A stretch of DNA of 56,770 bases. It comes from a bacterium (GTDB lineage: Bacteria > Hydrothermota > Tepidihabitantia > SM23-42 > JAOAFX01). Under the pieces are notes generated by a model. It saw nothing but the letters and a program-made list of their open reading frames with translations. It searched no databases and was not told the DNA's origin. The position numbers and the translations under genes were made by a program. Of the stretch, positions 1,672-13,645 are shown in pieces; within the stretch, counting starts at the first letter, position 1, and the number at the start of each line of letters is the position of its first letter. Location of the stretch: the NCBI GenBank assembly GCA_036382775.1, contig DASVHD010000045.1:1-56770 (forward strand), given 5' to 3'.

Positions 1672-2916
1672 TCACGTTCCCATTTCCCAGGACGAGAGGT
1701 ATTTGATCTGCTCGGGCGTGAGTTTGTCGATCTTGATACCCATGGACTTCAGCTTAAGGCTGGCGATTTCGTTGTCGATGGCAGGGGGCAGGGAATGCAC
1801 ACGCTTTTTCAGTTTAGGATTATTGAAAAGGTATTCCGCGGCCAGCGCCTGGTTCGCGAACGACATGTCCATGACCATTGCCGGGTGGCCTTCGGCCGCG
1901 GCAAGGTTCACGAGCCTTCCTTCGGCCAGCAGGTAAATGCGTTTTTTATTCTTCAGCGTGTATTCTTCGCAGGAAGTCCTGATCAACCGTTTCTTGCGGG
2001 ATATCTTTTTGAGCCCGACCTTGTCGATCTCCACGTCGAAATGCCCCGAGTTGCTGATTATGGCGCCGTCCTTCATTTTCAGCATGTGGTCTTTTCTGAT
2101 TACGTTGATGTCGCCCGTGACCGTGACGAACACGTCGCCGGTCCTTGCTGCCTCGGCCATGGGCATGACCAGGTAGCCATCCATCCTTGCTTCCAGGGCT
2201 TTTACCGGATCGACCTCAGTGACCATGACAGTGGCGCCATGCCCCTTGGCCCTCATCGCCAGGCCGCGGCCACACCAGCCGTAACCGGCCACGACGAAGT
2301 TGCACCCGCTGATCAGGATATTGGTCGCGCGCAGGATACCGTCAATGGTCGACTGGCCCGTGCCGTACCGGTTGTCGAACAGGTGCTTGGTCAGGGAATC
2401 GTTGACCGCGACGATCGGGAACTGCAGGACTTTGTCCGCTTCCATCTGTTTTAGCCTGATCACGCCGGTGGTCGTTTCCTCGGTGCCGCCGACGACGCCG
2501 GGCAATCTTTTCTTGTGGACGGTCGAGATCAGGTCGGCGCCGTCGTCAATAAGTATATGGGGCCGCCGATTCATAACCTGCGCCATGTTCGCGTAGTAGT
2601 GGCTGCGAGATTCACCCTTGACCGCAAAAACTCCGATACCCTGTATTGCCAGCGCTGCCGCCACGTCGTCCTGGGTCGACAGGGGATTGGACGCGGTTAG
2701 GTAGACATCGGCGCCGCCGGCGCGCAGAGTGATGATAAGGTTCGCGGTCTCGGTCGTGACATGGAGGCAGCAGCCGATCCGTTTATTCTTCAAGGGACGC
2801 TCTTTTTTGAAGCGCTCGCGGATCAAACGCAGGACCGGCATTTTGGACTCGGCCCATTCAATCCGTTTCAATCCTTCAGAAGCCAGGGATTTGTTCTTAA
2901 TGTTGTATTTCATCAT
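1672..2916 (-). CDS. ahcY: Adenosylhomocysteinase (S-adenosylhomocysteine hydrolase)
   Basis: Cytosolic NAD-dependent enzyme that splits S-adenosylhomocysteine into adenosine and homocysteine, relieving product inhibition of methyltransferases. The 414-residue protein has the Rossmann dinucleotide motif GYGWCGRG near residue 211 and the family signature region [10 protein letters not shown] at about 141-150. It also has the C-terminal block [15 protein letters not shown]. At 414 residues it matches the short, Thermotoga/archaeal-like form that lacks the internal insertion of long eukaryotic and proteobacterial enzymes. The first ATG of a tandem ATG-ATG pair overlaps the metK stop by 4 nt (ATGA), so the gene is probably translationally coupled to metK. 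Together the two genes make and recycle the methyl donor. Identity is secure. Confidence 0.96.
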
Positions 2917-4055
2917 AGACCCGCTTCCCGTTTTATCGCATCGGCCATATCGCAGATCTCCCAGGTAAAGCCCTCTTCTTCGCGGCCGAAATGGCCGTAA
3001 CAGGCGGTCTTTTTATAGATCGGCCGGCGCAGGTTCAGCTTGTCGATGATACCCTGCGGCGTGAAGTCGAAAAGTTTTTTCAAGATGCCGGCGATCTTGT
3101 CTTCATTGATCTTATTGGTGCCGTGGGTATCGACATTGATCGCCACCGGTTCGGCGACGCCGATGGAATAGGCGAGCGCCACCTCGATCTTGGCGCAGAC
3201 GCCCGCGGCTACCAGGTTTTTCGCCACGTAACGCGCCATGTATGCCGCCGAGCGGTCGACCTTGGTCGGGTCCTTGCCGGAGAAACAGCCCCCGCCGTTG
3301 CGTCCGGCCCCGCCGTAGGTGTCGACTATGATCTTACGGCCGGTGACACCGGTATCTCCCTGAGGCCCGCCGATCACGAACCGGCCGGTCGGATTAATGA
3401 ATATTTTTGTCTTGTCATCGATGAACTTCTGAGGGATGATCTCGTCGATGATGATCTTTTTCAACTCTGCGTGGAGTTTTTCGTTCTTGACGTCGGGATG
3501 GTGTTGAGCAGAAAGCACGACCGTGTCCACGCGTACCGGTGTATGCCCGTCGTACTCGACCGTAACCTGCGCTTTGCCGTCGGGGCGCAGATAATTGACG
3601 ACATTCGTCTTCCTGACCTCAGCCAGCCTGCGTACGATCTTATGCGCCAGCATGACGGGGAGGGGCATAAGTTCCTTGGTTTCATTCACGGCATAGCCAA
3701 ACATCATGCCCTGGTCGCCCGCGCCGCCGATATTCACGCCCATCGCGATATCATGCGACTGTTCCTGGATCGCGGATATGATCGCGCACGTGTGGGCATC
3801 GATGCCCATGTCAGTGTCCGTATAGCCGATCTCAAACAGCAAGGCACGGATAGTGTCCGCTATGTCGACGTAGCACGCGGTCGAGATCTCGCCGGCGACA
3901 AAGATCATACCACGGGTAGTAAGCGCTTCGCACGCGACCCGTCCAAAAGGATCTTTTTCAAGTATGGCATCGAGGATCGAATCGGCGCTCTGGTCGCAGA
4001 TCTTGTCCGGATGCCCTTCAGTCACGGATTCCGATGTTATGAAATGGCGTCCCAT
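2913..4055 (-). CDS. metK: S-adenosylmethionine synthetase
   Basis: Makes S-adenosylmethionine from methionine and ATP, releasing phosphate and pyrophosphate; a cytosolic homotetramer in characterised bacteria. The 380-residue protein starts with the MetK block [18 protein letters not shown]. It carries the signature [12 protein letters not shown] near residues 112-123 and the phosphate-binding block [19 protein letters not shown] near 250-268 (usually GGGAFSGKD). Length is normal for bacterial MetK. The ATG is preceded by AAGGAGG and by its own promoter, whose -35 box lies inside the end of the upstream cyclase gene. I looked for a SAM riboswitch in the roughly 50-nt gap to the cyclase gene; there is no room for one. 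It is the first gene of a two-gene operon with ahcY. Confidence 0.97.
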
Positions 4056-4083: not shown

Positions 4084-4111
4084 ATTATATGGATTTACGG
4101 GAAAAAATCAA
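4084..4111 (-). promoter_or_regulatory. Promoter of metK-ahcY
   Basis: Minus-strand TTGATT (4111-4106) and a perfect TATAAT (4089-4084) with a 16-bp spacer. They are followed by an AAGGAGG ribosome-binding site 3 nt before the metK ATG at 4055. The -35 box overlaps the last codons of the cyclase gene. Confidence 0.8.
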
Positions 4112-6879
4112 GATTTGATCTCCGCTAATACTTTCTTCATGAGATCGGGGAGCATACCGGCCTTGTCCATGCGGTCCAGAATCTCGAGGGATCGGTCATA
4201 ATGCGCCAGCGCTTCCAGATTAGCGTAGCTTTTCTTGGCGCGATCGCCGGCCTCGATCGAATAGCTGAAAGCCTTTTCCCAGGCTTCGCCCTTGTAAAAA
4301 TGGTGCGCCAGGATGGCAAAGGACGATTCCGGGTCTGCCTGCACTTTTTCTTCGATATAATCACCGATGGTCCGATGGAGCATCTTGCGGGTGTCAAAAG
4401 ACAGGCTTTCGTACGCCACTTCCTGGGTAATGACATGCTTGAAGCCATAGCCTTCTTTTGTCGGGATCAGGAGATCATGCTCGTTCAAAGCGCGCAGGCT
4501 TTGCTGGAGGATTTCCGGGTTGGGGAATATGGACTGGATCGTGTCGCCGGTGAATTCTTTCCCGATCACCGAGGCATACTGGATGGTGTTTTTGATATCC
4601 TCACCCAGATTGTCGATCCTGCTCATGATCAGGCTTTCCAGGCGGTCCGGCACCGAGATCCGCGAGAGGTCTTCCTGGACCTTCAGCTTGCTTTCCTCGA
4701 TGCTCAAAACGTCGTTTTCGATCAGCACTTTCGTCATTTCCTCGATGAACAGGGGATTGCCGTGGGTCCGGTCTGCCATGAACTGCAGTAAAGCGGTCGG
4801 GACCTCGGTGATATCAAGGAGCGATTTGACCAGGTCGGCAGTGATGTCGCTCGAGAATTCGGCGAGTTTCATCTCGGTGTGGAATTCATGCTCGGTGAAA
4901 GCCAGGGGTGTATCAAACGGACGGTACGCGCAGCACAGGAGTACCGCGTGCTCTTTGATATTACGCGCCAGATAATTGATAAGCAAGAGCGAAGCGTTAT
5001 CGGCCCAGTGAATGTCTTCGATAATGACCGCCACCGGTTGCTTCTTCGTTTCGCTTGTGAGAAGGTCGACCGTCAGGTCAAAAAACCTCTGCTGGCGCAA
5101 CTTGGCATCGAGGGATCTGGTGAAGGGCGTTTCGTCGATGGTCACGCCGATATTTTCGCCGATTATAGGCGTCCACTCTCTGAGCGATGGGTCGATGCCG
5201 GTCATTATATTCGAGATCTTTTCGACGCGGAGCTCGCGCGTATCATTCTTGTCAAAGCCGAAATAATCCGCCAGTACGGCCTGCAGGGGATAGTACGACA
5301 TATCCTTACCGAAAGATTCGCAGTTGCCGACGAAGATCTTGAAGCCGCGCTGGCTGCAGGATTGGAACACTTCGCGCACCAGGCGCGATTTACCGATGCC
5401 GGCTTCGCCGACGATCGATAAAATGCGTCCGCTTCGGTCCCGGACCGCGGCGATGGTGCTGTCGATGAGCTTTCTTTCTTCATGCCGTCCCACGATCGCC
5501 TCGCTATGGCTGAGCCATGAGGTTTTGGCCTCGGCCCGGGCGATCTTCTTAAGGACCATCGACGTGTTGACCGTCAGTTCTTTGCCTTTCACGCGGACCG
5601 GTTTTACCGGCGTGAGCTCAAAATATCCGCGGACCCGGGAACGCACGCTGTCACTGATGGTGATCTCCTGCGTACGCGCAAGATCCATGAGCCTGGCCGC
5701 CAGATTGACCTCATCGCCCATGACCGTGTATTCGCGGCGCTTGCTCGAACCGACGTCGCCGGCGAAGACCGACCCGCTGTTGATGCCGATCCGCAGGGAG
5801 ATCTTATACGGTTCGGCCACAGGCAGGATCTCGAGCGCGGTATTGACGGCGCGCTGTTCGTCATCCTCGTGAGCGACGGGGGCTCCGTACACGACCATCA
5901 GGCGCTCCCCTGTGGTGCTGAAATCGATCTTAGCGATTATGCCGTCGTACTTCTTGACGATCTGCTGCAGACGCGCGAAGAACGCCCGCAATTTGCCAGT
6001 GGCCGAAGGATCCTGGTAATAATCCAGCCCCGAGATATTCAAAAATATCGTGGCCGCATGCCGGTGCTCACCGCTGATCCGCGACAGGGTTGGGTCGGCC
6101 TTGATTTTATTGATCAGACCGTGCGGCAGGTACAGGGCAAGGTGATCGAGGCGGGCGCTTTCGGAGGTCAAGGACTGCAGGACATCTTGAACCGGTGCTG
6201 TTTTGATGCCGGTGGCCGTTTTCCGCGGATGCTTGACAAGGTGCATCCCTGCTTTTTTCCTTATTGCCGATATCCCCGACCCTGCCTCTTTCAGGAATTC
6301 GTCGCTGACAAAAGTCTCACCGGATTCCGCTTCCTCGGTAAGTTCGTAAACGCGGTTGAGGATCGGACCGAGCATCGCGAGTTTATGCCCGATCGATCCA
6401 TCGCCGAGCTCGAGCAGGATGATCTCACCGCAGTGCAGGCCGACGTGCAGTCCGAGATTGAACACGCCGACCAGCGTGTGGATCTCGCCAAAGCTTTCGA
6501 TGATCCGGTGCATTTCCTGAACCGCTGCCAACGCCCTCATTTCCTTGGAACTGGCATTGCGGTCAGCCGTGAATATGACATTCATCGCGTCGCCGGAAAA
6601 ATTTATCAGGTCGCCGCCATATTTGAAAATTATGCTTAGAAAGGGTGCAAAATAACTATTGACCACCTTGGTGACTTCCTCGGAACCCTGACGGCCCATG
6701 CCCTTGAGTTTCTCGGAAAAAGCCGTGAACCCCGATATGTCGGCCATCAGGACCGCGGCCTGGATCTTCTTGCCCATTTTGAGTTCGTCTTTATCAGCCT
6801 GGGTGACCAGGATGCGGGGTAGATAGCTCGCGATGGCATTTATTAGCACGTCATTTGTGATCGTGTCTTTCTTGGTCAT
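4108..6879 (-). CDS. Soluble adenylyl cyclase-like protein: two class III cyclase domains, NTPase, TPR-like tail
   Basis: A 923-residue protein with the architecture of mammalian soluble adenylyl cyclase. The order is C1 cyclase domain (about 38-200), C2 cyclase domain (about 272-435), an AAA/STAND NTPase with P-loop GEAGIGKS at 491-498 and a Walker-B-like VAVIIEDIHWAD, then a helical TPR-like end. C1 keeps both metal-binding Asp (D47 in ADISGF, D97 in FSGDAM) but lacks the transition-state Arg (E at the expected place in GPILNRVYEL). C2 has lost the metal Asp (N281, E325). It keeps an adenine-type Lys (K317), T385, N392 and R396, in the same 7- and 4-residue spacing as the sAC T/N/R set. This predicts one composite ATP-cyclising site and a cAMP product (inference). 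No membrane segment is seen. The start is 10 nt after a perfect -10 box and lacks a Shine-Dalgarno. It has its own transcription unit. Confidence 0.9.
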   Translation of the reverse strand: MTKKDTITNDVLINAIASYLPRILVTQADKDELKMGKKIQAAVLMADISGFTAFSEKLKGMGRQGSEEVTKVVNSYFAPFLSIIFKYGGDLINFSGDAMNVIFTADRNASSKEMRALAAVQEMHRIIESFGEIHTLVGVFNLGLHVGLHCGEIILLELGDGSIGHKLAMLGPILNRVYELTEEAESGETFVSDEFLKEAGSGISAIRKKAGMHLVKHPRKTATGIKTAPVQDVLQSLTSESARLDHLALYLPHGLINKIKADPTLSRISGEHRHAATIFLNISGLDYYQDPSATGKLRAFFARLQQIVKKYDGIIAKIDFSTTGERLMVVYGAPVAHEDDEQRAVNTALEILPVAEPYKISLRIGINSGSVFAGDVGSSKRREYTVMGDEVNLAARLMDLARTQEITISDSVRSRVRGYFELTPVKPVRVKGKELTVNTSMVLKKIARAEAKTSWLSHSEAIVGRHEERKLIDSTIAAVRDRSGRILSIVGEAGIGKSRLVREVFQSCSQRGFKIFVGNCESFGKDMSYYPLQAVLADYFGFDKNDTRELRVEKISNIMTGIDPSLREWTPIIGENIGVTIDETPFTRSLDAKLRQQRFFDLTVDLLTSETKKQPVAVIIEDIHWADNASLLLINYLARNIKEHAVLLCCAYRPFDTPLAFTEHEFHTEMKLAEFSSDITADLVKSLLDITEVPTALLQFMADRTHGNPLFIEEMTKVLIENDVLSIEESKLKVQEDLSRISVPDRLESLIMSRIDNLGEDIKNTIQYASVIGKEFTGDTIQSIFPNPEILQQSLRALNEHDLLIPTKEGYGFKHVITQEVAYESLSFDTRKMLHRTIGDYIEEKVQADPESSFAILAHHFYKGEAWEKAFSYSIEAGDRAKKSYANLEALAHYDRSLEILDRMDKAGMLPDLMKKVLAEIKS

Positions 6880-11299: not shown

Positions 11300-13603
11300 C
11301 TATCTAACTTTTACTGCTTTGTGTACAATATTTCCATCTACTTCTATGAAATAAATCCCTGGTTTTATCTGCTCTGACATGACAACCTGACCGATGATGT
11401 TAAAAACCTTGTACTTTTTATCCTTTGGTAATCGCAGAAAATCGCTAACGATCGTAGCACCAGATTTGCTGATTTTTATGAAATTGGAATTATTTTCCAC
11501 TATCCCAACCACATCCTTCAAGATCGATACGCTTGAACTGTAATAATTAGCTGCGTAAACGCGGTTTTGAATCGGATTCCAGGCGAAAACCCGGGGACCG
11601 CTCCCCACATTAATATATCCGATTATGCCGTTACTGACACCATTAATAATTGAAACGTAATCATCCGCATAGTTAGCGCAGTAGATTTTGTTGTTATTAG
11701 GATCATGGATCAGCGCCTCAGGGTATTCCCCAACAAACTTGGTAGTTATAATAGAATCTCCTTCGCCATCGATTATGGTTACGCTATAACTGAGCTCATT
11801 AGCGCAATAGACTTTATTGCTGTTTGGATTGTAAATTATGGCACGAGGTTGTATGCCAACTGCAATCGTGGTAATTACCACATCTGTCTCTCCATCAATG
11901 ATCGTTACATTCGTGCCCAGCCAATTAACACAATAGATCTTATTATTGATCGGATTGAAGGCCATTGAAACAGGGCAGTTATCAACAGTGATCAAGTTTA
12001 TCACTGAATCGGTATTGCCGTCAAATACTGTTATATTGTTGTCACCGCTATTAGCACAGTAAACCTTATTGTTGGTTGGATTAAAAACAAATGCACGAGG
12101 GCCATCACCAACGGTGATGGTTATGATAATATCATTAGTGGCGCCGTCGATTATCGTGATATTGTCATTATCGCTGTTTGCGCAATAAACTTTATTGTTG
12201 ATTGGATTGTGCAGCAAGGATGTTGGACTGTATCTAATATCGATTGTCGTAATAACGCTATCAGCCACGCCGTCGATCACGGTTACGTTATTACTTTCCT
12301 CGTTGGCGCAATAAATTGCATTGTTATTGGAATTGTAAGCCAAAGCCACGGGAAAATCACCGACCGGAACCGAAGTGATAACCGAATTAGTTGCTCCGTT
12401 AATAATCGTTGTATTATTGCGCCTCCGATTAGCGCAATAAATCTTATTATTGTATGTATTATATGCCAAAGCGCAGGGCATAGATTGCCCCAAAGCAATC
12501 GTTGCTGTCACAACATTATTGACACCATCGATGACCATAACATTATCGCTGCCCCAGTTCCCGCAAAATACTTTCATATTCGCTGGATTGTAAACTAAAG
12601 CCAAGGGATTATATCCAAGGGCGACTGTAGCGATGACATTATTGCTTGCACCATCAATCACGGTCACACTCTGGCTGTTGCTATTAGCGCAGTAAATTTT
12701 GTTATTGGTTGAATTGTAGATCAGTTCACATGGATTGGAACCCACAGGGATCGTTGCGATGATTCCGTTGGTTGCACCATCGATCACGGTTACATTATTA
12801 CTCCCCGTATTTGCACAGTAAATTTTGCTATTAGTTGAATTGTACGCCAGGGCATGCGGACCAGATCCAACAGGGACCGTGGTGATGACCGCATTGGTCG
12901 CGCCATCGATTACGGTGATATCACCACTTCCTTCATTGGTGCAATAGATCTTATTATTAATCGGGTTGTAAACCAGCGCAGACGGCCATGTTCCTGCCGA
13001 AATTGTCACGATGACCGAATCGGACGCGCCATCAATCACAGTGATATCATCACTTAAATAATTTGTGTTATAAACTCTATTATTAGTTGAATTATATGCC
13101 AGAGCCCTTGGTGCGGTCCCGACTGCAACCCATCTGATAACATTATTGGTAGCGCCATCAATTATTGTGATATTATCACTCCATTGATTGGTACAATATA
13201 TTTTATTATTGGTGCGATTGTGAGTTAACGCATATGGATAACCTCCTACTGACACAGTGGTGATCAAAGAATTAGTTGCACCATCAATGACCATGACATC
13301 ATGGTTGCTTATGCGAGTGCAATAAACTTTATTATCTATAGAATTATGGATCAATGCGCAAACATAATAACCAGTGTCAGATGCTATCCTGGCAATCCCC
13401 TTATCGGTTGCACCATCAATTGCAATCACATAATATTTACCACCGACATATATCGTATTATTTATGTCATTATAGGCAAGGGAGTATGGTCCCTGTAGTC
13501 CGCAATAGGAATCGGGCACACAAATCGTTGTTTCCAGCCACTGAGCACTGGTTACACTTATGAATATAAAGAATATACCTATATAAAATTTTGTCGTATT
13601 CAT
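11300..13603 (-). CDS. Secreted YVTN-type beta-propeller protein with Por/T9SS-type sorting domain
   Basis: A 767-residue secreted protein. The ATG at 13603 is preferred over an upstream in-frame start because AGAGGG precedes it and a signal peptide follows at once (MNTTKFYIGIFFIFISVTSAQ region). Residues about 40-690 are 15 full and one partial repeat of about 42 residues. Each carries a core like VIDGATNxVI, then VGxxPxAL, then YNxxNNKIYCAN, i.e. YVTN/NHL-like propeller blades, enough for two propellers. The last 75 residues (YKVFNIIGQVV, then GIYFIEVDG, ending KAVKVR) match the type-A C-terminal sorting domain that directs T9SS export in Bacteroidetes. The gene is much more AT-rich than fhs and lies between two copies of a palindromic element, suggesting transfer. 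Ligand unknown; an extracellular or surface role is inferred. Confidence 0.85.
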   Translation of the reverse strand: MNTTKFYIGIFFIFISVTSAQWLETTICVPDSYCGLQGPYSLAYNDINNTIYVGGKYYVIAIDGATDKGIARIASDTGYYVCALIHNSIDNKVYCTRISNHDVMVIDGATNSLITTVSVGGYPYALTHNRTNNKIYCTNQWSDNITIIDGATNNVIRWVAVGTAPRALAYNSTNNRVYNTNYLSDDITVIDGASDSVIVTISAGTWPSALVYNPINNKIYCTNEGSGDITVIDGATNAVITTVPVGSGPHALAYNSTNSKIYCANTGSNNVTVIDGATNGIIATIPVGSNPCELIYNSTNNKIYCANSNSQSVTVIDGASNNVIATVALGYNPLALVYNPANMKVFCGNWGSDNVMVIDGVNNVVTATIALGQSMPCALAYNTYNNKIYCANRRRNNTTIINGATNSVITSVPVGDFPVALAYNSNNNAIYCANEESNNVTVIDGVADSVITTIDIRYSPTSLLHNPINNKVYCANSDNDNITIIDGATNDIIITITVGDGPRAFVFNPTNNKVYCANSGDNNITVFDGNTDSVINLITVDNCPVSMAFNPINNKIYCVNWLGTNVTIIDGETDVVITTIAVGIQPRAIIYNPNSNKVYCANELSYSVTIIDGEGDSIITTKFVGEYPEALIHDPNNNKIYCANYADDYVSIINGVSNGIIGYINVGSGPRVFAWNPIQNRVYAANYYSSSVSILKDVVGIVENNSNFIKISKSGATIVSDFLRLPKDKKYKVFNIIGQVVMSEQIKPGIYFIEVDGNIVHKAVKVR

Positions 13604-13617
13604 AAACCCTCTAGTAA

Positions 13618-13645
13618 ATTGTATACCAAACGATTCCGATGTCAA
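13618..13645 (-). promoter_or_regulatory. Promoter of the beta-propeller gene
   Basis: Minus-strand TTGACA (13645-13640), 16-bp spacer, TACAAT (13623-13618), then AGAGGG and the ATG at 13603. Confidence 0.75.

Follow-up and report, generated by a model that had tools for sequence, protein, structure and literature searches.

A bacterial twin-domain cyclase of the soluble adenylyl cyclase type, fused to a STAND NTPase and without the bicarbonate-site residues of the human enzyme

Human soluble adenylyl cyclase (sAC, ADCY10) is a fertility enzyme and a drug target, in which a long C-terminal region follows the NTPase. Lys95 and Arg176 are named as two important residues of the sAC bicarbonate site, Arg176 being the switch on Asp99 (PMC12250328), a small insertion in the second cyclase domain (C2) is said to make this site and Chloroflexus cyclases are reported to be activated by bicarbonate (PMC11006738), cyanobacterial cyclases are described as bicarbonate-activated through a mechanism reported as different (PMC3918592), and a putative NTPase is placed after C2 in sAC too (PMC6023465). 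Bacterial sAC homologues, with a conserved domain structure and regulated by bicarbonate, were reportedly described by Kobayashi, Buck and Levin in 2004. Here we describe a protein of this kind encoded in a stretch of bacterial DNA of 56,770 nucleotides (the window). Its gene (4108..6879; this and all further coordinates within the gene are window positions on the minus strand) is an ORF of 923 amino acids in which a twin-domain class III cyclase is fused to a STAND NTPase.

Composite site and likeness to human sAC

Pfam assigns two Guanylate_cyc stretches and an AAA_16 domain to the window protein. With 92.7 bits over the 2 PF00211 stretches, against a curated cut-off of 21.9, the protein classifies as a class III nucleotidyl cyclase. 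The first domain (C1, residues 37-218; 6226..6771, from alignment and model) holds both metal-binding aspartates, while in C2 (residues 271-445; 5545..6069, from Pfam, alignment and model) the substrate residues are present and the metal aspartates absent. As judged from sequence, the similarity to human sAC is not due to chance: human sAC is the top phmmer match, with both domains aligned (E 3.7e-24, 88 bits). With a profile built from twelve twin-domain proteins, human sAC is matched over a single stretch, positions 6-411 of 421, that runs across C1, linker and C2 (E 8.9e-56, 193 bits), the second-best protein in this search being CyaB with 101 bits; identity between the window protein and human sAC is 22% over the aligned core. 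The preliminary description of this DNA had proposed modelling the C1-C2 pair as a check, and the AlphaFold model of residues 1-450 (pLDDT 93.2, pTM 0.92; folding alignment A4, 83 rows) superposes on sAC across both domains. Foldseek gives a TM of 0.80-0.83 against sAC, and structural superposition (VIA) gives Z 42.0 and 3.5 A over 428 residues for 4clk and Z 41.9 and 2.7 A over 430 residues for 8co7, followed by human AC9 as the next fold match (Z 36.8). Because the superposition spans both domains at once, D47 and D97 should face K317, N392 and R396 in the model as they do in sAC.

The catalytic residues were placed by alignment. C1 provides metal aspartate 1, D47 (6739..6741; D47 in human sAC), and metal aspartate 2, D97 (6589..6591; human D99). 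The first metal aspartate of C2 is lost (N281, 6037..6039; human N298). The C2 hairpin (residues 317-332; 5884..5931) contains K317, which aligns with human K334, a four-residue insertion in common with human sAC, and S321, found where C2 has lost its second metal residue and human sAC has F338; D319 lies two residues from this position. Further along C2 are the adenine-contact residue T385 (5725..5727; human T405), N392 (5704..5706; human N412) and the transition-state arginine R396 (5692..5694; human R416). All six composite-site residues (D47, D97, K317, T385, N392 and R396) are thus intact. The preliminary description had proposed a C1 with both metal aspartates and a glutamate instead of the catalytic arginine, and a C2 that has lost both aspartates and kept its Lys, Thr, Asn and Arg, and all of this was verified, the numbered residues at their numbers; the glutamate of C1 is E179, and the two aspartate positions of C2 hold N281 and S321.

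The further claim that the spacing of these residues is exactly that of sAC holds, though not for sAC alone. The distances, 7 from T385 to N392 and 4 from N392 to R396, are indeed those of human sAC, but single-domain cyclases in the same genomes have them too, e.g., L006 (AYTVMGDTVNLAQR). The 7/4 spacing was therefore rejected as sAC-specific evidence and is, on these alignments, a mark of class III cyclases in general. A different distance separates the two groups. From the Lys to the Gly of the FG/YG motif in the C2 hairpin, human sAC has 15 residues, as do 90 of the 92 bacterial twin-domain proteins, and ten of 12 single-domain cyclases have 11, the other two having given no motif. On alignment evidence, it is this four-residue-longer C2 hairpin that is the sAC-specific mark.

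The window protein is, in our view, very probably a composite-site sAC-type adenylyl cyclase in which one site works and the other is dead, and cAMP is its predicted product. In the proposed mechanism, C1 and C2 would pair head-to-tail within one chain of a cytosolic class III adenylyl cyclase, and a single active site converting ATP to cAMP would be formed by K317, T385, N392 and R396 of C2 and by two metal ions bound to D47 and D97 of C1. The mirror site, made of a C2 without aspartates and a C1 with Glu for Arg, would be non-catalytic and may serve as a structural or regulatory pocket; it is regarded as decayed and has neither the metal ligands nor the arginine. The earlier idea that complementary decay leaves one active site and one pseudo-site, as in sAC, is thereby supported: the domain arrangement is the same, the model superposes, and the asymmetry is family-wide and inherited.

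The bacterial family and its descent

A scan of a genome collection yielded at least 502 confirmed relatives, of which the best 80 were kept and joined to 39 loci from the first searches, giving 119 loci. Proteins with a profile span of more than 330 of 421 positions were counted as twin-domain, which left 92 of the 119 after nine loci at that span were removed by eye as single-domain (L003, L004, L006, L019, L020 and L023-L026), the remainder being too short. All but one of the best 80 scan loci are among the 92 (79; the span of L084 is too short). These best 80 of at least 502 relatives are mostly from Chloroflexota, with other records from WOR-3, Stahlbacteria, Actinomycetota, Cyanobacteriota, Pseudomonadota, Acidobacteriota, Verrucomicrobiota and Wallbacteria; phylum names are those of metagenome bins, and misplaced contigs may be among them. 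A scan of viral contigs with the whole protein returned zero relatives.

The one-site asymmetry recurs throughout these 92 proteins. Both C1 aspartates are found in 91, a figure inflated for D47 by the 70 rows that hold the scan pattern, which includes this residue; of the 22 rows without the pattern, 21 have D47 and 21 the aspartate at the D97 position. The C2 Asn and Arg are kept together in 84 and the full composite set (D, D, K, T/S/D, N, R) in 41. Conversely, none of the 92 has a complete second site or both C2 aspartates, and the C1 Asn and Arg occur together in 5/92. The C1 arginine position is still R in 12/92, so that loss on the C1 side is not universal. Family members need not all be adenylyl cyclases, as their sequences indicate, because the full set occurs in only 41 and because Ala replaces both K317 and T385 in the near relatives L011 and L014.

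Several relatives depart from the common pattern. In the C2 of L011 and L014, both base-recognition positions are the ones changed to Ala, and the metal and Asn/Arg residues are kept, for which a substrate change or a loss of activity is possible. In the twin-domain protein L018, the positions of D47, D97, N392 and R396 are occupied by E, H, E and E; still fused to its NTPase, L018 is likely a pseudo-cyclase. The cyclase frame at L125:4071-6866 (G017:C65) is split into three overlapping frames and represents either a pseudogene or an assembly error. In six proteins near human sAC (L064, L085, L088, L092, L097 and L118), C2 has kept the second metal aspartate and lost the first, which suggests a stepwise decay of the dead site.

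Trees were made from proteins hand-picked for spread (35 of the 92 in a larger quick tree, 49 in another and 23 in the domain tree) together with human sAC. The domain tree, in which each domain is a separate unit and to which 12 single-domain cyclases were added, places all C1s, including the human one, in one group (100/100, bootstrap/SH-aLRT) and all C2s, again with the human one, in another (99/96); the larger quick tree agrees (SH-aLRT 100 for the C1 and 96 for the C2 group). Human C1 and C2 both group with the cyanobacterial and Blastocatellia proteins L064, L097 and L088 (100/98 and 98/80), a placement to be taken with caution as the human rows are long branches. The window protein is placed apart from these, beside L011-L015, the WOR-3 record L040 and L067 (support 93 in the 49-protein tree); going by L040, the window may come from WOR-3 or a phylum close to it. 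Since C1s and C2s each group with their human counterpart and the four-residue C2 hairpin insertion is common to both, the arrangement is inherited, and the two-domain one-site design is, by these trees and alignments, older than the split between the window protein and human sAC. Human sAC itself seems to descend from the bacterial twin-domain family; its origin was reportedly the subject of work by Roelofs and van Haastert in 2002.

The second site and alternative readings

The preliminary description had carried the analogy one step further, to the binding of bicarbonate at the second site. This part does not survive alignment with human sAC. The position of Lys95 is occupied by N93 (6601..6603) and is not conserved, and in Y178-E179 (6343..6348) the switch Arg176 is replaced by Y178, next to E179 at the C1 catalytic-arginine position. 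Lys95 is kept in 44 of the 92 twin-domain proteins, the window protein not being one of them, and Arg176 in none of the 92, including those closest to human sAC. The bicarbonate switch of human sAC, in its known form, is on this alignment absent from the window protein. It is accordingly unlikely that the protein senses bicarbonate as human sAC does, namely by bicarbonate entering the dead site, engaging the arginine and releasing the second metal aspartate, even though the fold and the position of the dead site are the same, the C2 hairpin carries the same insertion, a small C2 insertion is said to make the sAC bicarbonate site, and Chloroflexus cyclases are bicarbonate-activated according to the same source (PMC11006738). 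The protein may nevertheless respond to bicarbonate by another route, of the sort reported for cyanobacterial cyclases (PMC3918592).

The variation within the family also bears on a reading in which nucleotide binding by the twin domain is passed on as a signal to the NTPase and no cAMP is made. Decay of this kind has occurred in some relatives (L018, with its E, H, E, E set, and L011 and L014, without the Lys and Thr), and one fold match of the model, 6yii of P. aeruginosa, is titled a class III cyclase-like ATP-binding protein. Against this, the window protein retains the entire composite site, which makes the loss of catalysis improbable in its case. Least probable of all is a guanylyl or other nucleotidyl cyclase activity: two residues predict base specificity poorly and a protein titled a guanylyl cyclase, cyanobacterial Cya2 (2w01), is moderately related, but K317 and T385 match K334 and T405 of human sAC exactly.

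NTPase switch, TPR partner and known systems

The NTPase that the preliminary description placed after the cyclase domains is there and is of the STAND type. This P-loop domain covers about residues 462-825, its C-terminal boundary being approximate (4405..5496; AAA_16 E 2e-21, and model), with the Walker A motif GEAGIGKS at residues 491-498 (5386..5409) and a Walker B-type stretch, AVIIEDIHW, at residues 617-625 (5005..5031), both read from the sequence. The model of residues 451-923 (pLDDT 90.1) has a STAND NTPase fold and matches the STAND-TPR protein 6mfv (Z 24.1, 4.4 A over 368), MalT (8bob; Z 23.1 over 383) and Apaf-1 (Z 20.8 over 392). By analogy with the NTPases of MalT or Apaf-1 and their effectors, the domain probably gates the cyclase pair in front of it. 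The TPR-like region that was also proposed could not be recovered. A Pfam scan of the last 473 residues at E 0.01 detects no TPR family, and the protein ends in a short helical stub (about residues 828-923; 4111..4398, from Pfam and model) that consists of a few helices in the model.

In most close relatives, TPR repeats are encoded next door. The window clade was counted as nine members (the window protein, L011-L016, L040 and L067; L120-L123 and L125 are L011-L014 and L016 with more flanking DNA, and L124 is L015 likewise). In six of the eight members with readable downstream DNA, a separate TPR-type ORF directly follows the cyclase gene (L120:6117-7670, L121:4611-6038, L122:4233-5603, L123:8359-9804, L125:6909-8291 and L067:7338-8990), identified as TPR by Pfam in five and by eye in L067. 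Gene starts were taken as the first ATG, the L067 frame being given from the stop; the distance from the cyclase stop to this ATG is 0-51 nt in L120-L123 and L125, and in L067 the frame overlaps the cyclase end. An additional ORF after the TPR-type gene of L067 looks helical-repeat-like by eye. The downstream TPR gene is absent at the window locus and at L124, and L040 ends at the contig edge. A search of the window's genome with the L122 companion gave 43 TPR-type matches, of which the top one is the TPR region of another cyclase and none stands out as a companion. As read from these loci, the repeat half has split off in the window clade and is missing at the window locus. Our literature search found no description of a split TPR gene beside an sAC-type cyclase, which is not to claim that print holds none.

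The place of the TPR gene is taken in the window by metK (methionine adenosyltransferase; 2913..4055, minus strand), the next downstream gene, 52 nt from the cyclase gene, which is followed on the same strand by ahcY. Upstream, and divergent, lie genes for a copper-type P-type ATPase and a formate-THF ligase. A functional link between the cyclase and metK/ahcY was considered and dropped, as it had only the shared strand and the 52 nt in its favour and both genes are missing from the relatives' loci (tblastn at E 1e-10, L120-L125 and L040). Elsewhere in the window, a 781-aa protein (11300-13645, minus strand) with repeated YNPTNNKIYCAN-type motifs, beta-propeller-like by eye, adjoins a stretch of lower GC. 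The window's genome contains 17 Guanylate_cyc matches, two of them within the window protein, and six cNMP-binding-domain matches above the Pfam cut-off, one with an internal stop codon. On account of both sets of matches, cAMP signalling is likely in use in this genome, and the six cNMP-binding domains make cAMP receivers plausible. Many of the 17 matches of this genome (G000, 3.06 Mb) are on frames of about 1000-1270 aa and several come with NTPase and TPR regions, these cyclase-STAND-TPR proteins representing an expansion.

The likely sensor of the STAND switch would be the TPR repeats, provided by an adjacent gene in most close relatives and absent from the window locus. We tentatively propose, as one possible history, that an sAC-type lineage in or near candidate division WOR-3 split the enzyme, keeping cyclase and STAND switch in one gene with the TPR sensor in the next, and that in the window copy, which has no bicarbonate residues, the sensor next door was lost or exchanged; a different ligand, or a TPR partner from another locus, would then act on its dead site and switch. 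This history and the lack of Arg176 in all 92 proteins would point to the single-site cyclase as the earlier, bacterial form and to the bicarbonate switch as a later gain on the way to animals. By the family counts and trees, the odd one-site design of human sAC is an old bacterial design found across many phyla, and the Arg176 switch lies outside the common core of sAC-type cyclases. The bacterial relatives differ in whether Lys95 is kept and in whether their TPR repeats are fused, split off or absent, and are natural test material for the roles of the dead site and the NTPase.

Compared with described systems, the window protein belongs to an already partly known kind, the bacterial sAC homologues, from which it departs, in its sequence, by having neither the bicarbonate pair nor a fused TPR region. 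It shares with human sAC (4clf, 4oya, 8co7) the C1-linker-C2 order in one chain, the single composite site, the decayed second site and the C2 hairpin insertion, and in the trees its C1 joins human C1 and its C2 human C2; it differs in the absence of Lys95 and Arg176 and of a long C-terminal region, ending at residue 923. With the bacterial sAC-like cyclase-NTPase-TPR proteins of Chloroflexota, Cyanobacteriota and others it has in common the C1-C2 order, the conserved half-site and the hairpin spacing; however, most of those compared have frames of about 1300-1450 aa, and L066, one such protein that was scanned, has TPR repeats fused, whereas the window protein stops after the NTPase. The single-domain cyclase-NTPase-TPR proteins of the same genome (such as L003, L004 and L006) resemble it in their C2-like cyclase domain and related NTPase, but have one cyclase domain that needs a second chain, a canonical metal aspartate and an 11-residue hairpin where the motif was found. 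Finally, the C2 and NTPase regions align with the TOMM system kinase/cyclase fusion (TIGR03903) at 286.3 bits; since the curated cut-off is 705.75 bits and the best stretch starts at residue 298, leaving out C1, membership in that family was rejected.
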